A stretch of 5,534 nt of DNA. Origin: Candidatus Aminicenantota bacterium. GTDB taxonomy: Bacteria > Acidobacteriota > Aminicenantia > UBA2199. The stretch's first letter is position 1. Each line of letters opens with the position of its first letter. The position numbers were made by a program, and so were the translations under genes. The stretch lies in NCBI GenBank assembly GCA_020355945.1, contig CP070627.1:5773709-5779242 (forward strand). The letters run 5' to 3'. The notes below the pieces were generated by a model. That model was not told the DNA's origin. It saw only the letters and a list, made by a program, of their open reading frames with translations, and did no database searches. Of this stretch, positions 180 to 5,386 are shown piece after piece.

Positions 180-209
180 CTCTTTCAAGCTCTAATACTT
201 TGAAAAGAG
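180..209 (-). terminator. Possible weak terminator overlapping EF-G stop
   Basis: Read on the minus strand, CTCTTTTCAA (209-200) can pair with TTGAAAGAG (188-180) with one bulged base and an 11-nt loop. The hairpin spans the EF-G stop codon and is followed by a T-rich stretch (179-166). The stem is AT-rich and the U-tract is interrupted, so a role as intrinsic terminator is only an inference. No better terminator is visible downstream of this gene. Confidence 0.35.
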
Positions 210-2327
210 AGAAATTGGCCTGTCCTGTTTTTTTTCAGCCACAGAGGACAAAGAGGAGGCTTTTTCTTTCTTCTCGGCAATGATTTCTTCTTGAATATTT
301 TTCGGCAGGGGTTCGTATTTGAGGAATTCCAAAGAGTAATTGGCCCGGCCGCTGGACAGGGTGCGCAGCACGGATGCATACCCGAACATCTCCATTAATG
401 GAATTTTACCGGCAAGTTTCTGGGAACCTTTACGATAGCGCCGCATATTGTCAATATGCCCTCGCCTGCGGTTAATATCGCCAATAATATCCCCGATGTA
501 TTCATCCGGGGTATTGATTTCAATTTTCATCACCGGTTCCAATAGTTGGGCACATCCTGGTTTGATTGCTTGTTTTAAGGCCAGTTCCGTACAGGTGCGA
601 AAGGCCATTTCACTGGAATCCACCGCGTGGAAACTGCCGTCAATTAACGTGAATTTGACATCTACCATGGGATACTCTGCCAACAGGCCTTTTTCCATGA
701 TGCGGCGAAATCCTTTTTCCACTGCCGGGATAAACTCTTTGGGAATATTCCCTCCTTTGATATAGTCGACAAATTCAATTCCTTTCCCCGTATTGGGTTC
801 TAGCCTGAATAGGATATGGGCATACTGTCCATGACCGCCGGTTTGTTTTTTAAATTTATATTCATGGCGGATTTCACAGGTAAGGGTTTCACGAAATGCT
901 ACGGCTGGTTTTCCTACTTCTACATTCACTTTATGTTCGGTTTTTAAACGATCCACTATCACATCCAGGTGAAGCTCTCCCATCCCGGAAATCACGGTTT
1001 CTTCGGTCTCGTTGTCATAACGTATTTTAAAGGAGGGGTCTTCCAACGCCATTTTATTTAGAGCAATTCCCAGACGATCCCGTTCTTTCAAGGTGGCAGG
1101 AGCAATTTTCATGTCCATCACAGTATCCGGGTAATGAATATTCTCCAGCAGGAGGGGATTACTTTCGTCGCACAGGGTATCACCGGTGGTAGTGATTTTC
1201 AGACCGATCAGGGCGCCAATATCCCCGGCACGCAGTACATTGACTTCCTTACGTTCATTGGCATGAATTCGCATAATCCTGCCGATGCGTTCTTTTTTTT
1301 CTTTAGTGGAATTGTATACATAAGTACCGGAATGCAGGTCCCCGGAATAAACCCGGATAAAGGTTTGCTGGCCCACGTAGTTATCATTGATAATTTTAAA
1401 GGCCAGTGCGGAAAAGGGTCGTTTCCATGAGGGTTTCCTGGAGATAGTGGTTTTCGGATCGTTTATATCGTATCCCAGTACAATGCCGCGGTCAATGGGA
1501 GAAGGAAGATAATCCACCACGGCATCCAGCAGTTTTCGTACGCCTTTGTTTTTAAAGGCGGAACCGCAAAATACCGGGGTGATTAGCAAACGCAGCACTG
1601 CATGCCTGGCAGCTTGCTTGATATCACCTGTGGTAATCTCTTCTTCATTTAGATATTTTTCCATTAAGTTTTCATCAAAATCTGCCAGTTTTTCAACCAG
1701 TTTTTCGTGATATATTTGTGCCTGGTCTTTTAATTCCCCGGGGATTTCAGATACGATGATTTTCAGGTCATCATAGGTGACAGCGGTCATATCTACCAGG
1801 TCGATGATGCCCTGGAAATTTTCTTCGCTGCCGATGGGTAATTGGAAGGGGACGGCATTGGCGCCCAGCATATCGTTCATCATATCGACTGTTTGCAGCA
1901 GGTGGGCCCCGGGGCGGTCCATTTTATTAACAAAAGCGATCCTGGGGACTTTGTAGCGGTCAGCCTGGTGCCACACGGTTTCGCTTTGGGGTTCTACGCC
2001 GCCCACTGCGCAAAAGACCGTGACAATGCCGTCCAGGACTCTTAATGATCGTTCCACTTCCAGGGTGAAATCGATATGACCGGGTGTATCAATAATATTA
2101 ATCTGGTGGTTGTTCCATGTGGTGGTAATGGCGGCGGAGGAAATGGTAATTCCTCGTTCTTGTTCTTGTTTCATGAAGTCCATGACAGCCTGGCCGTCGT
2201 GGACTTCTCCCATTTTACGGGTAACGCCGGAAAAGAAGAGGATGCGTTCGGTGGTGGTGGTTTTACCGGCATCGATATGGGCTGCGATGCCGATATTTCT
2301 AATTTTTTGTATCACGTTTTGTTCCAT
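192..2327 (-). CDS. fusA: Elongation factor G (translational GTPase)
   Basis: EF-G is the cytoplasmic GTPase that drives tRNA-mRNA translocation on the ribosome and helps recycle ribosomes. The 711-residue product has all five G motifs: AHIDAGKT (16-23), GITI in switch I (59-62), DTPGH (80-84), NKMD (134-137) and GSAFKNKG (255-262). EF-G domains II-V follow. They include the domain IV stretch ending [10 protein letters not shown], with the conserved decoding-site-proximal His at 567, and the domain V motif GRANYSLEF (660-668). The ATG at 2327 has an AAGGAA site 9 nt upstream and a strong promoter beyond it. About 20 residues of charged tail (roughly 690-711) exceed the usual C-terminus. No rpsL, rpsG or tuf gene is adjacent, so this may be a second EF-G copy rather than the str-operon gene. 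Family assignment is secure; which paralogue is not. Confidence 0.97.
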
Positions 2328-2336
2328 TTTTCACAG

Positions 2337-2342
2337 TTCCTT
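2337..2342 (-). promoter_or_regulatory. Ribosome binding site of EF-G gene
   Basis: On the minus strand AAGGAA lies 9 nt before the ATG at 2327. It supports this start, which also places the first G motif at the normal distance from the N-terminus. Confidence 0.7.
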
Positions 2343-2399
2343 TTGGGTAAGGTGTATGGTTTCCTCTATCCAAATGATTGTCTTCAGTTTGACCCGCGG

Positions 2400-2428
2400 A
2401 TTATATCATTTTAATTTCCATTTGGCAA
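2400..2428 (-). promoter_or_regulatory. Sigma-70 type promoter of EF-G gene
   Basis: On the minus strand TTGCCA (2428-2423) and TATAAT (2405-2400) are separated by exactly 17 bp. The -35 matches consensus at 5 of 6 positions and the -10 is perfect. Transcription is expected to start near 2393, giving a 5' leader of about 66 nt. Two CCGCGG palindromes, 2394-2399 at the start site and 2431-2436 just upstream of the -35, bracket the promoter. The gene therefore seems to be transcribed independently. Confidence 0.7.
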
Positions 2429-2468
2429 GCCCGCGGTCGGCCTAGATTCACCATCTATTTTTTAAAGC

Positions 2469-2498
2469 CGCGAAGACACGCGAAGGAACGCGAAGAAA
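2469..2498. repeat. Three tandem 10-bp CGCGAAG repeats
   Basis: CGCGAAGACA, CGCGAAGGAA and CGCGAAGAAA follow each other without gaps, giving a helical-turn period of 10 bp. The reverse complement (TTCGCG every 10 bases) resembles short intergenic repeats I associate with many environmental bacterial genomes. That association is from memory, not a search. The block lies upstream of the EF-G promoter in non-coding DNA. Confidence 0.7.
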
Positions 2499-2539
2499 AA
2501 GATAACCAAAACCTCCATTAGTGAGAAGTTTTTGGGAGT

Positions 2540-2569
2540 CCAGAACCCTTTTCTCAAAAAGGGTTTTGG
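2540..2569. repeat. 13-bp hairpin in intergenic region
   Basis: CCAGAACCCTTTT (2540-2552) pairs with AAAAGGGTTTTGG (2557-2569) around a CTCA loop. The stem has 13 pairs, one of them G-U. It is flanked by a GC-rich CTGCCGGAGGC segment on one side and by GTTTTTGGGAGT on the other. No U-tract follows on either strand and the nearest gene ends are far away, so I read it as a REP-like palindromic element rather than a terminator. Confidence 0.6.
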
Positions 2570-2607
2570 CTGCCGGAGGCACAATGCTTAATACTCTTCA
2601 AGATTAA

Positions 2608-2624
2608 ATAAAGCGCTGAAATAA
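2608..2624 (+). repeat. Dispersed 17-bp motif, copy 2
   Basis: ATAAAGCGCTGAAATAA is identical to the copies at 153-169 and 2751-2767 except at the two variable central bases. It immediately precedes the left arm of the 12-bp inverted repeat starting at 2627. Confidence 0.55.
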
Positions 2625-2626
2625 TG

Positions 2627-2679
2627 CGAATGGGCAATTTTTAAAATTCTATAAATCTGTTTCCATTATTGCCCATTCG
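2627..2679. repeat. Perfect 12-bp inverted repeat, AT-rich loop
   Basis: CGAATGGGCAAT (2627-2638) is exactly the reverse complement of ATTGCCCATTCG (2668-2679). The 29-base spacer is AT-rich. It contains no open reading frame of note and lies in the non-coding stretch between the EF-G promoter and the small membrane-protein gene. It could be a stem-loop in RNA or the remnant of a small palindromic element. Confidence 0.6.
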
Positions 2680-2734
2680 TGCTACGCGAGGTACTGCAGG
2701 GAGAGTGACGTGATCCAGGAACGAAGTGCTGTAA

Positions 2735-2760
2735 AGTACTGCCGTTCGGCATAAAGTACT
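2735..2760. repeat. Compact hairpin with AGTACT outer arms
   Basis: AGTACT-GCCG-TT-CGGC-ATAA-AGTACT forms a 10-bp stem with a 4-nt bulge. The sequence TAAAGTACTG occurs twice here, 20 bp apart (2732-2741 and 2752-2761). The hairpin starts about 25 bases beyond the stop codon of the small minus-strand gene and could slow transcription or protect the mRNA end. It lacks a U-tract, so it is not a typical intrinsic terminator. Confidence 0.45.
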
Positions 2761-2767
2761 GAAATAA
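2751..2767 (+). repeat. Dispersed 17-bp motif, copy 3
   Basis: ATAAAGTACTGAAATAA is the third copy of ATAAAGNNCTGAAATAA. It overlaps the right arm of the compact hairpin. It lies 17 bases past the stop codon of the small gene, much as copy 1 lies 22 bases past the EF-G stop. Confidence 0.55.
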
Positions 2768-2784
2768 TAAAGTCCTTTGAATTA

Positions 2785-2973
2785 CTATAAAATCCACAGG
2801 ATCAATTGAATTATTCCTACGATAAGACCTACGATAACAGCAATCCCGGCAATGATGCCCCAGAATGTTTTATACCACTTTTTTTTCTCTTTTTTCGGTT
2901 GAATCTCAAATTTGTTTTTGTCTGCTTTTACGACTTCCATTTGCTCCTGGTCCACATGTAAATCCTCACTCAT
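2785..2973 (-). CDS. Small lysine-rich protein with C-terminal membrane anchor
   Basis: I do not recognise this family. From the preferred start the product is 62 residues. It has an acidic/polar N-terminal half, a KKEKKK cluster (27-32) and one hydrophobic segment (about 36-61, rich in Gly, Ile, Val) that ends at the C-terminus. This is a tail-anchored layout with the N-terminus probably cytoplasmic. The frame stays open to ATGs at 3057 and 3096. I prefer 2973 because AAGAAGG lies 4 nt upstream, and because the SSKEGN peptide just before it is largely the translated Shine-Dalgarno. The ATG at 3096 overlaps the -10 of the predicted promoter, so it would not be on the transcript. The start at 3057 (91 residues) remains possible. 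Function is unknown. It is transcribed divergently from the ATPase gene. Confidence 0.6.
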   Translation of the reverse strand: MSEDLHVDQEQMEVVKADKNKFEIQPKKEKKKWYKTFWGIIAGIAVIVGLIVGIIQLILWIL

Positions 2974-3094
2974 ATTGCCTTCTTTTGAAGAGTTTAATCG
3001 CCGCACAGCTTCGGGCGAATGTTTCAACACACAAAGCGAATGAAGTGGTTCGCTCATCTGCTCTATATCCTCTCTAAATTTAAATTTCCTTTTC

Positions 3095-3123
3095 ATTATA
3101 CCCGATTAACAACATTTTTTCAA
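3095..3123 (-). promoter_or_regulatory. Sigma-70 type promoter of small membrane-protein gene
   Basis: On the minus strand TTGAAA (3123-3118) and TATAAT (3100-3095) are spaced by exactly 17 bp. The predicted start is near 3088. The -35 lies in the left end of the inverted-repeat element at 3118-3242, while the -10 lies outside it. The -10 overlaps the most upstream in-frame ATG of the small gene, which argues for a downstream translation start. Confidence 0.65.
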
Positions 3124-3242
3124 AGGGGGCGGCGCCCCCAGCCCAAAAAGGCCCGGATTTTGGTGCCAGGCAAAGTTTTGAGGCAAAATTTTTGGCAAAC
3201 CGTTAGGGTTTTCTTGGGCTGCGGGCGCCGCCCGCCTTGACA
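3118..3242. repeat. 125-bp inverted-repeat element, MITE- or REP-like
   Basis: The 32-bp arms 3118-3149 and 3211-3242 are reverse complements at 27 of 32 positions. Their core is very GC-rich: GGGCGGCGCCC on the left, GGGCGCCGCCC on the right. The 61-bp interior also folds, with TGCCA pairing to TGGCA and CAAA to TTTG. It encodes no protein. GC content and palindromicity are unlike the neighbouring AT-rich DNA, which suggests an inserted element. No target-site duplication is obvious at either end. Each end carries an outward -35 hexamer (TTGAAA left, TTGACA right). Alternatives are a bidirectional regulatory palindrome or a transcribed structured RNA. Confidence 0.7.
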
Positions 3243-3265
3243 TCAGTAAATTTCTAAGTTATAAT
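3237..3265 (+). promoter_or_regulatory. Perfect-consensus sigma-70 promoter of ATPase gene
   Basis: TTGACA (3237-3242) and TATAAT (3260-3265) both match consensus completely and are separated by the optimal 17 bp. Counting 7 bases from the end of the -10 puts +1 at about 3272, the A of the ATPase start codon. The -35 forms the right end of the inverted-repeat element and the -10 is outside it. Confidence 0.8.
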
Positions 3266-3271
3266 TAGAAT

Positions 3272-4513
3272 ATGACTGGTCTTAAACGAAACCTTGAAGA
3301 TAAACTTAATAAACTGCTGACCTTCTTTCCCGCGGTGACTATCCTGGGAGTAAGACAGGGAGGAAAAACCACCCTGGCAAAGATGATCAGGCCCCAATGG
3401 AAATATTTTGACCTGGAAAAAGGCAGCGACTACGATCGAATGACCAATGATGTTGATTTCTTTTTCAGGGAAAATCCCGAACACTTGATCATTGACGAGA
3501 TCCAACAAGCTCCCCAACTTTTTCAAGAACTGCGGGGGATTATTGACAGGGACCGGGAGAAAAAAGGTCGCTTTATCCTTACCGGTTCCAGTTCCTTTGA
3601 ACTGGTGAAAAATATATCAGACAGCCTGGCCGGCCGTGTGGGGATCGTGGAATTGGGCACGTTAAAACTCAATGAATTTGCCGCGAAACCCCTGTCACCA
3701 TTTTATAAAATTTTTGATAACCCGCTGTCATTAAATACTTTAGAATTTTTGAAAGATTTACAGCCGCAGGTTTCGCATGAACAGGTTACAAACTTTTTTT
3801 TAAAAGGCGGTTACCCGGAACCAGCCGTTATCAATGATGATGAATTTCACTTTAGTTGGATGGAGAACTATTATAAGACATATATTGAAAGAGATATCAG
3901 GAAATTATTCCCTAAGCTTGATATTGTCAAATACAGACGATTTATAGCCATGCTGTCCTCCCTTTCGGGGACCATCATCAATCGATCCGAAGTGGGCCGG
4001 TCCCTGGATACCTCGGAAGTTACCGTGAAAGAATACCTGGATATTGCTCATGGGACCTATGTGTGGCGGAATATACCCAGCTATGAAAAGAGTGTGATTA
4101 AATCTATCCTAAAAATGCCCAAAGGCATTCTTAGAGATTCGGGGCTCTCACACTTTCTCCAGAGAATTCGCGATAAAGAACAATTAAATGCCTATCCCCG
4201 TGTAGGTAACAGTTTTGAAGCGTTTATCACAGGAGAAATAATTAAAGGGCTGGAAGCAAAGATGCTGACAGGATGGGAATATTATTACTACAGGACACGC
4301 AATGGAGCTGAAATCGATTTAATCCTGGATGGTGATTTTGGTGTCCTGCCTATTGAAATCAAATATGGACTTAAAACCGATAAAAACCAGATAACTTCTC
4401 TTAGAAAATTTATTAAAGATAATAACCTGCCCTTTGGTATTGTCATCAATAACAGCGAAGAAGTAACCATGCTGGCTGAAGGGATAATTCAAATACCTGC
4501 AGGATTAGTATAA
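3272..4513 (+). CDS. AAA+ ATPase with C-terminal DUF4143 domain
   Basis: The 413-residue product has the AAA_14/DUF4143 architecture common in bacteria and archaea; its cellular role is unknown. The N-terminal ATPase core shows Walker A GVRQGGKT (26-33), Walker B HLIIDEIQ (71-78, Asp75-Glu76), sensor-like LTGSSSF (103-109) and SLAGRVG (118-124), whose Arg122 is a candidate ATP-contacting residue. A linker and winged-helix-like part follow (YIERDIRKLF at 204-213, then about 231-258). The C-terminal part ends in AEIDL (Asp349) and IEIK (Glu362, Lys364), with Glu316 upstream. This is the spacing of a PD-(D/E)xK nuclease-type core, and it looks intact. Length is normal for the family. No signal peptide or membrane segment is present, so it is cytoplasmic. 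The start codon has no Shine-Dalgarno and coincides with the predicted transcription start. No toxin, antitoxin or defence partner is adjacent. DNA binding or cleavage is inference. Confidence 0.93.
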   Translation: MTGLKRNLEDKLNKLLTFFPAVTILGVRQGGKTTLAKMIRPQWKYFDLEKGSDYDRMTNDVDFFFRENPEHLIIDEIQQAPQLFQELRGIIDRDREKKGRFILTGSSSFELVKNISDSLAGRVGIVELGTLKLNEFAAKPLSPFYKIFDNPLSLNTLEFLKDLQPQVSHEQVTNFFLKGGYPEPAVINDDEFHFSWMENYYKTYIERDIRKLFPKLDIVKYRRFIAMLSSLSGTIINRSEVGRSLDTSEVTVKEYLDIAHGTYVWRNIPSYEKSVIKSILKMPKGILRDSGLSHFLQRIRDKEQLNAYPRVGNSFEAFITGEIIKGLEAKMLTGWEYYYYRTRNGAEIDLILDGDFGVLPIEIKYGLKTDKNQITSLRKFIKDNNLPFGIVINNSEEVTMLAEGIIQIPAGLV

Positions 4514-4514
4514 T
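4509..4514 (+). promoter_or_regulatory. Possible -10 element for HEAT-repeat gene
   Basis: TATAAT overlaps the ATPase stop codon and would give a start near 4521 with a leader of about 74 nt. No good -35 is visible at 16-18 bp and there is no extended -10 TG, so this is weak. The alternative is read-through from the ATPase promoter, since no terminator is evident between the two genes. Confidence 0.3.
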
Positions 4515-4580
4515 TTCCTGCCTCATGGTTGTAAACCGATTCCTCCTCCACCCCGTCTAAGGGATCTTAAAACGAAATAA

Positions 4581-4594: not shown

Positions 4595-5386
4595 ATGAAA
4601 ACATTTCAACATCAGGTGTTTAAAAAATTAAGAATTGGCCTGGTAATGGTTATTGTATTCGGTCTCATGGGACTCGGAGTCTTTACTTTCGGTGAAGAAA
4701 AAGCCAAAGATGAAGAAACCGAACTGAAAGAAGCAGCCTTGAATGCCCTACTAATGATGAATGGAGAAAAAGCAATCCCTATTTTGGAAAAAATTCTCAA
4801 GCAAAAAGATAATCCTAAATTAAGGGAAAAAGCGGTATTTATTCTCAGCCAAAAAAGCAAGGAAAAAGCAATCCCCATCATTATCCGGGTAGCTAAAACC
4901 GATCCTGACATGGAGGTCAGGGAAAAAGCCATCTTCTGGTTGGGACAAATCAGGGACGAGAAAGCCTTTAACGCCTTAATGGATATTTATAACACCACTA
5001 AAGAACAAAGTTTAAGGGAGAAGCTGATTTTCTCAATTTCACAGCACAGGAGTGAAAAAGCCTTTCAAAAACTGGTGGAAATCGCTCAAAAAGACCCTGA
5101 TGAAGAAACCAGGGGAAAAGCAATTTTCTGGATCAGCCAATCAGGAAACAAAGGAGCAGCCGACATATTACAAAAAATCGCGCTGGGAGACCCCGACAAA
5201 AATATCCGGGAAAAAGCCCTGTTTGCTCTTTCTCAACTGCCTGGGCATGCCGGAGTACCATATTTAATCAAAATAGCCAAAACCCACAAAGACATGAATA
5301 CCAGGAAAAAAGCCGTATTCTGGCTGGGACAGTCCAATCATCCTGATGCCATAAAAGTATTGGAAGAGATCGCCCATGGAAAATAA
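4595..5386 (+). CDS. Exported HEAT-repeat protein
   Basis: The 263-residue product starts with a basic segment (Lys10, Lys11, Arg13) and a hydrophobic stretch (about 14-31). This is a signal peptide or an uncleaved anchor; no clear AxA site is seen before GEEKAKDE. From residue 45 the rest is built of HEAT-like helical repeats in strict 32-residue register. The consensus R-E-K-A-x-F-x-x-S/G-Q begins at 77, 109, 141, 173, 205 and 237, and a diverged unit (LKEAALNALL) begins at 45. Such repeats form alpha-solenoids that bind proteins, and no catalytic motif is present. It is therefore probably a scaffold or binding protein on the membrane or in the periplasm. The strong Shine-Dalgarno supports the start. 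The next gene overlaps its end by 11 nt, which suggests joint expression. Repeat class is clear; the partner is unknown. Confidence 0.9.
   Translation: MKTFQHQVFKKLRIGLVMVIVFGLMGLGVFTFGEEKAKDEETELKEAALNALLMMNGEKAIPILEKILKQKDNPKLREKAVFILSQKSKEKAIPIIIRVAKTDPDMEVREKAIFWLGQIRDEKAFNALMDIYNTTKEQSLREKLIFSISQHRSEKAFQKLVEIAQKDPDEETRGKAIFWISQSGNKGAADILQKIALGDPDKNIREKALFALSQLPGHAGVPYLIKIAKTHKDMNTRKKAVFWLGQSNHPDAIKVLEEIAHGK
4727..5383 (+). repeat. Coding tandem repeats with 96-bp period
   Basis: Seven units of 96 bp (32 codons) encode the HEAT-like repeats; the last unit is shortened to 27 codons by the stop. Sequence similarity is highest around the RGGGAAAAAGC segment that encodes (R)EKA, for example near 4919 and 5208. 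The exact period with no insertions suggests origin by tandem duplication of one unit. Confidence 0.75.
5362..5368 (+). promoter_or_regulatory. Ribosome binding site inside HEAT-repeat gene
   Basis: GGAAGAG lies 7 nt before the ATG at 5376, within the last codons of the HEAT-repeat gene. It supports an overlapping start and coupled translation of the next gene. Confidence 0.5.

Follow-up and report, generated by a model that had tools for sequence, protein, structure and literature searches.

Autorepressors with operators over the -10 box of their own promoter are a familiar arrangement. Hybrid promoters at the ends of insertion sequences, as described in passages of one report (PMC9330008), take their -35 box from the element and their -10 box from the target. 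REP sequences of the GTAG and CGTC families, in the sections of another report that describe them (PMC3733652), are short, dispersed, high-copy hairpins, some of them intragenic, and sometimes occur as opposed pairs. Passages of a third report (PMC12988326) rank PDC-S01 fourth in frequency among the defences of all prokaryotes and state that validation is pending for most such candidate defences; these passages treat distribution and phylogeny and do not mention regulation or an operator. The literature listed for DUF4143, COG1373, PF13635 and PF13173 contained nothing evidently on regulation. Among publications that mention both Aminicenantes and palindromic sequences, titles and abstract openings pointed to nothing evidently concerned with the repeat described below.

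The window analyzed here is a stretch of 5,534 nucleotides from Candidatus Aminicenantota bacterium (contig CP070627.1, 9,131,798 bases). The explanation that we favor, with a probability of roughly 0.7, is that a dispersed, GC-rich hairpin repeat fills the gap between divergent genes with two of its copies, which lie face to face; each gene would have its own sigma-70-type promoter, and the repeat would be needed for neither -35 box. The right promoter is the conserved promoter of an AAA_14/DUF4143 ATPase gene, with a 39-bp dyad centered on its -10 box. The ATPase would probably bind this dyad and thereby limit its own, probably leaderless, transcription, and the repeat would probably be a spacer or cruciform between the promoters. 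The features of the window are as follows.

192-2327, minus strand: EF-G gene.
2430-4530, approximate: block of membrane protein, palindrome and ATPase without counterpart in relative G007; on the right it ends at 4530 as judged by eye and at 4575 according to BLAST.
2785-3096, minus strand: small membrane-protein ORF; probable true start 3057 (M14), start at 3096 also possible.
3095-3123, minus strand: left promoter, -35 TTGAAA 3123-3118, -10 TATAAT 3100-3095; probably native to the membrane-protein gene.
3125-3145, plus strand: left repeat module core, hairpin GGGGGC-GGC-GCCCCC and tail AGCCCA; arm matched at dozens of places in relatives.
3146-3214, no strand: center of the composite palindrome, joining both modules into one long stem.
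3215-3235, minus strand: right repeat module core, inverted copy, GCGGGC-GGC-GCCCGC and tail AGCCCA.
3237-3265, plus strand: native promoter of the ATPase gene, -35 TTGACA 3237-3242, -10 TATAAT 3260-3265.
3242-3280, plus strand: 39-bp dyad (putative operator) centered on the -10 box; outer arms 3242-3247 and 3275-3280, inner arms 3251-3257 and 3265-3271.
3272-4513, plus strand: AAA_14/DUF4143 ATPase gene (PADLOC PDC-S01), 413 aa.
3986-3988, 4019-4021 and 4301-4303, plus strand: ATPase codons 239 and 250 (presumed helix-turn-helix) and 344 (presumed nuclease-like part).
4595-5386, plus strand: HEAT-repeat protein gene.

Both promoters reported in the initial annotation are present. On the plus strand, TTGACA and TATAAT are separated by 17 bp and match in 12 of 12 positions; on the minus strand, TTGAAA and TATAAT have the same spacing and match in 11 of 12. 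The inverted repeat between them was also correctly recognized, with arms at 3120-3154 and 3206-3240 that are 83% complementary. The folding energy of the 125-nt stretch was -72.2 kcal/mol, compared with -49.0 kcal/mol (sd 4) in shuffled sequences (z -5.8). A score of 11/12 with a spacer of 16-18 bp was reached at three sites in the whole window, the two promoters and one upstream of the EF-G gene (2428-2400). Any 11/12 site with a 17-bp spacer appeared in 18 of 3000 dinucleotide shuffles of the region 2330-3400, and such a site at offsets 0-2 from the element edge in 1 of 20000 shuffles of the left flank. The rarity of these sites in the window and in the shuffles indicates that both promoters are more than chance, in agreement with the earlier view that a chance alignment of the two is unlikely. 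The promoter-like site upstream of EF-G (TTGCCA-17-TATAAT, minus strand, 2400-2428) shares 83% identity with G007 (locus L174, 3611-3646).

The initial annotation had further proposed that the element supplies the -35 boxes of both promoters. A widely applicable control for such a claim is to ask if the promoter is retained in homologues that lack the repeat. The upstream regions of 78 of 80 ATPase loci (L039 and L051 lacked the gene start) were combined with the window into a set of 79 rows, which by record title came from Acidobacteriota, Thermodesulfobacteriota, Deltaproteobacteria, Gamma- and Alphaproteobacteria, Bdellovibrio kin, and others. No ATG was found at the anchor in 20 of the 79 rows, and the promoter test was made with the 59 rows that have one. 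A hexamer with at least 5 of 6 matches to TTGACA was located exactly at -35 to -30 from the ATG in 42 of the 59 rows, window included (41 of 58 without it), compared with 0-3 rows at each of 37 other offsets. The other 17 rows lacked a -35 box of 5/6 at the conserved place. Within 150 nt upstream of the gene, the repeat module was absent in 52 of 53 aligned rows and present only in the row of the window. The best control was L001 from Candidatus Aminicenantes RS_9_67 (genome G001), the closest ATPase locus among the searched genome contigs (74%). There, the same gene is preceded by TTGACA-17-TATACT without a repeat, even though the genome has 268 repeat sites.

The right TTGACA is therefore kept in homologues without the repeat and belongs to the ATPase gene's own, conserved promoter. 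With the hybrid promoters in the passages of PMC9330008, the window shares a -35 box beside the repeat edge and a -10 box outside it; unlike them, its right -35/-10 pair accompanies the ATPase gene in different phyla where the element is missing. A hybrid promoter would have been a striking case here, and this control removed the right side of the claim. Since the expected transcript start coincides with the ATG at 3272, the right promoter would give a leaderless mRNA, and transcription of the ATPase gene is thus probably leaderless.

The left side is less clear. The promoter had been thought to drive the small membrane protein, and its TATAAT overlaps the ATG of the listed ORF at 3096. If the left promoter drives this gene, the protein must therefore start at 3057 (M14) or later; conversely, with a start at 3096, the TATAAT could not serve the gene. 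M14 was invariant in 18 of 18 aligned rows (the window and 17 of 20 homologues; P0256, P0258 and P0261 were left out of the 21 rows), while residues 2-3 were variable, which indicates a start at M14. Where residues 7-13 (FREDIEQ) are present, they were well conserved, which leaves some room for a start at 3096 and slightly lowers our confidence in the favored explanation. In the homologue P0259, the ORF runs upstream through the promoter region and reads ...FLFSLKRGYKSDIM, compared with ...APPPLKKCC*SGIM for the window in the same frame. P0259 has Leu-Lys at the place of TTGAAA and Ile-Met at the place of ATAATG, and its protein sequence contains no equivalent of the GC-rich arm before them. 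As a single protein sequence rather than DNA, this is evidence of moderate strength. A search for DNA of membrane-protein homologues found it in 0 of 396 genomes, an empty answer that shows little, and the case for the left promoter rests for this reason on protein sequences. We conclude that the membrane-protein gene probably owns the left promoter, a weaker conclusion than that for the right side, and that a hybrid origin of the left promoter is unlikely. The claim that the element supplies the left -35 box is not supported either, on weaker evidence than for the right one.

The window's small membrane protein had no Pfam or NCBIfam match. The stretch 2785-3057 belongs to a family with a conserved start, MSEPxHSLCVLKHSPxAVRRLN, and two kinds of C-terminus, either a membrane anchor or a short end of the type ...KLK. 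The family looks like a leader with a variable tail.

In G007, the EF-G and HEAT genes are adjacent, about 250 bp apart, and the membrane protein, the repeat and the ATPase are missing between them. According to the matching flanks, the missing block comprises about 2.1 kb. The block may have been gained in the lineage of the window or lost in G007. Among relatives, the five top-scoring EF-G loci (L174-L178, with about 1.5 kb to either side) had no convincing match to the membrane protein, and the HEAT gene was convincingly matched only in L174.

The expectation that further copies of the arms would be found in relatives was confirmed. Single arms matched many places in G001 and G002, and the repeat was matched at E 0.001 in 5 of 34 genomes of the family. 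Four of these five genomes are large (6.9-10.4 Mb); the fifth, G010 (3.4 Mb), was matched by the palindrome center only. Repeat sites in the genomes of relatives were counted with a 20-base pattern allowing at most two mismatches, and the reversed pattern served as control. The counts were 268 compared with 6 for the control in G001, 65 with 2 in G007, 18 with 7 in G009, 15 with 1 in G002 and 13 with 0 in G005; G006, G008 and G010 had 0-1 sites. In the fetched loci, stem pairing was kept, with both partners changed, in 30 of 37 sites with two mismatches, and this test was run without any demand for pairing. The alignment of modules (45 of 95 module references) cannot test pairing, because the regular expression that defines a module demands 5 of 6 pairs. 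It gave the consensus AAAR, followed by a hairpin with the loop GGC and by A[AG]CCNA. The arms in the window are thus copies of a hairpin repeat that covaries in its stem and is dispersed in Aminicenantes relatives with large genomes.

Of 102 modules, the 95 with a locus of at least 1 kb around them were inspected for open reading frames and partners. Twenty-four of the 95 fell within an ORF of 150 aa or longer, in 19 cases in the sense direction. With the strict pattern, none of the 95 modules had an inverted partner within 160 nt, except for the two in the window. The composite in the window is therefore unusual in form, yet built of a common part. With regard to a target-site duplication as in MITEs, direct repeats of at least 12 nt were absent from the region 2800-3500. 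Compared with the GTAG/CGTC REP sequences, as far as described in the sections of PMC3733652, the repeat is similarly short, dispersed, high in copy number and partly intragenic, with the opposed pair as a further likeness. It differs in its flanks (AAAR and A[AG]CCNA), in the absence of a GTAG or CGTC tag, and in its host of the Aminicenantes kind.

Several other properties of the modules were noted. Modules that are in frame inside ORFs (L123, L083, L190 and others) add peptides such as RAAPAAHE, and the one in L123, judged by eye, lies in the linker of a kinase-like protein. In many modules, for example in L103, L106, L135, L156, L161 and L201, the likeness continues downstream for about another 100 nt and includes a T-run near TTTGTTTTTTT; this extension ends like GTATTA[AG]TAAAA, as in a longer element. 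A second repeat-like hairpin is present in the window at 2521-2580, AGTTTTTGGGAGTCCAGAACCCTTTTCTCAAAAAGGGTTTTGGCTGCCGG, and a near copy in the opposite orientation adjoins a module in L209.

Three other explanations for the locus have to be considered. A mobile palindromic element might have brought outward -35 boxes in both ends, which then formed hybrid promoters with local TATAAT sequences. Consistent with this idea, the element is directly bordered by two strong promoters, its arms belong to a dispersed repeat, and a strong outward promoter is found at the 5' edge of the module in L089 (11/12), L232 (10/12) and, by eye, L121 (TTGAAA-17-TATAAT; outside the set of 100 non-window modules because its tail differs). 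However, copies in general do not share outward -35 ends with a -10 box 17 bp outside: only 2 of the 100 non-window modules reached 10/12 at offsets 0-2, where the mean outward score was 4.4-4.6 compared with about 4.2 elsewhere. Offsets 3-44 together had three 10/12 sites, which leaves a slight excess at the edge. This excess, seen in L089, L232 and L121, suggests that a hybrid promoter can arise at some copies; it may be due to the A-rich flank or to the survival of insertions just outside a promoter. With the right side refuted by conservation in the absence of the element, and with P0259 hinting at a native left -35 box, we consider the mobile-element explanation quite improbable. The resemblance of the -35 hexamers to parts of the repeat has two causes: divergent boxes such as TTGAAA and TTGACA mirror each other as inverted copies, and the 5' flanks of the repeat tend to be A-rich. 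Generally, TCAA...TTGA lengthens any inverted repeat that lies between divergent -35 boxes.

A mixed origin, with a native right promoter and a left -35 box derived from the A-rich edge of the repeat (outward TTT plus GAAA), would mean that the repeat switched on the membrane-protein gene. The A-rich 5' flanks of the copies are in line with this scenario, as is a slight rise in -35 matches towards the edge, where offset 1 has a mean of 2.1 of 6, compared with about 1.6 elsewhere. Few copies do so, however, and the Leu-Lys and Ile-Met of P0259 are in register without a GC-rich arm, which makes the scenario unlikely. We are equally doubtful that the palindrome, instead of being a stray repeat, has been selected at its place between the promoters to serve as a transcription insulator or regulatory site. 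A very stable hairpin exactly between the boxes, and an inverted module pair seen only here among 95 modules, speak for such a site, but hundreds of modules occur elsewhere, a quarter of those inspected (24/95) lie inside ORFs, and none of the other 52 ATPase promoters tested has the repeat upstream. Facing repeat copies between genes with promoters of their own are therefore our preferred explanation, and the remaining analysis concerns the promoter of the ATPase gene.

This promoter contains a covarying 39-bp dyad with one axis, located on the -10 box. In the 59 rows, the inner arm was 74% and the outer arm 73% complementary, compared with 52% (sd 2) and 54% (sd 2) when arms were exchanged between rows, and complementarity on 12 neighboring axes was 12-43%. 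For a 53-row alignment, L043, L049, L056, L057, L058 and L073 were dropped by eye as out of register. In this alignment, 82.9% of the cells were paired (68.3% in shuffles, sd 1.0), and 121 cells had changes on both sides (48.6 in shuffles, sd 7.3); dropping the six rows favors the dyad in this test, while the 59-row test kept them. Covariation in an RNA hairpin was considered as the cause of the dyad, but the expected transcript would begin downstream of the dyad's left half, and this possibility was therefore rejected. As in autorepressors with operators over the -10 box, the dyad is centered on the -10 box of the gene's own promoter. Unlike in those systems, the reader would be an ATPase, which we take to be STAND-like, with a helix-turn-helix and a nuclease-like part.

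In L051, positions 2722-2770 hold a solo ATPase promoter with the dyad, with 91% identity to the window across 35 nt. Next to it comes ATGACTGGTATGAAA, and beyond this the DNA is unrelated. The solo copy may be a lone operator or what is left of a second ATPase copy.

The ATPase has AAA_14 and DUF4143 domains and matched PADLOC PDC-S01 models, with a best E value of 9.8e-88. The distribution of the gene is patchy: at 1e-90, 9 of 395 genomes had it in one phylum and 4 of 398 in another, starting genomes included. Corrected mutual information between promoter columns and ATPase residues was calculated for 51 of the 53 rows (L029 and L033 have early stops). Residue 239 covaried with column 18 (z 11.6) and its mate, column 34 (z 9.6), residue 344 with columns 10 (z 8.6) and 42 (z 7.0), and residue 250 with column 32 (z 8.0) and with columns 20 and 31 (z 6.4 each). 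The other pairs above 5.5 involved codons 2-4, which are promoter columns themselves, and the maximum z in 24 upstream flank columns was 5.5. After thinning to less than 80% and less than 70% identity (36 and 27 rows), residues 239, 344 and 250 were still among the leading pairs; with 27 rows, an unexplained pair of column 23 and residue 37 (z 6.7) ranked fourth. With 19 rows, residue 239 still led, and residues 344 and 250 were near noise. In a tree test of co-change with those regions left out, residue 239 agreed in 4 of 4 supported independent pairs (p 0.125), residue 344 in about 3.6 of 4 and residue 250 in about 2.3 of 4, too few pairs for significance.

In a confident structure model of the ATPase (pLDDT 93.9, pTM 0.92), residues 239 and 250 start the helices 238-245 and 249-261, which are followed by strands. 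Residue 344 lies close to E347, D349 and the PIEIK motif, in the loop that connects strands 336-342 and 347-354. We take the two helices to be a helix-turn-helix and the region of residue 344 to be a nuclease-like part. The simplest reading of the co-variation between bases and residues is that the ATPase probably binds its own promoter. The location of the dyad over the -10 box suggests that the ATPase would thereby repress its own transcription.

We lean towards a more specific model, in which a dimer of the AAA_14/DUF4143 (PDC-S01) ATPase would be a sequence-specific reader of its own promoter, spanning the 39-bp dyad over the -10 box and the start codon. The inner half-sites would be contacted by the winged helix (residues 239 and 250) and the outer ones by a loop of the nuclease-like part (residue 344), and the protein would have co-evolved with the operator across several phyla.

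For the Aminicenantes, the analysis adds a high-copy, covarying hairpin repeat. The dyad, a by-product of the work, outweighs the question of hybrid promoters, and a conserved self-operator is worth following. The conserved putative operator and the three predicted base-reading residues offer a direct biochemical test for which neither a phage nor knowledge of the trigger is required. If the model is true, a candidate defence gene that is widespread and moves horizontally would have its expression coupled to the DNA-binding state of its own product.
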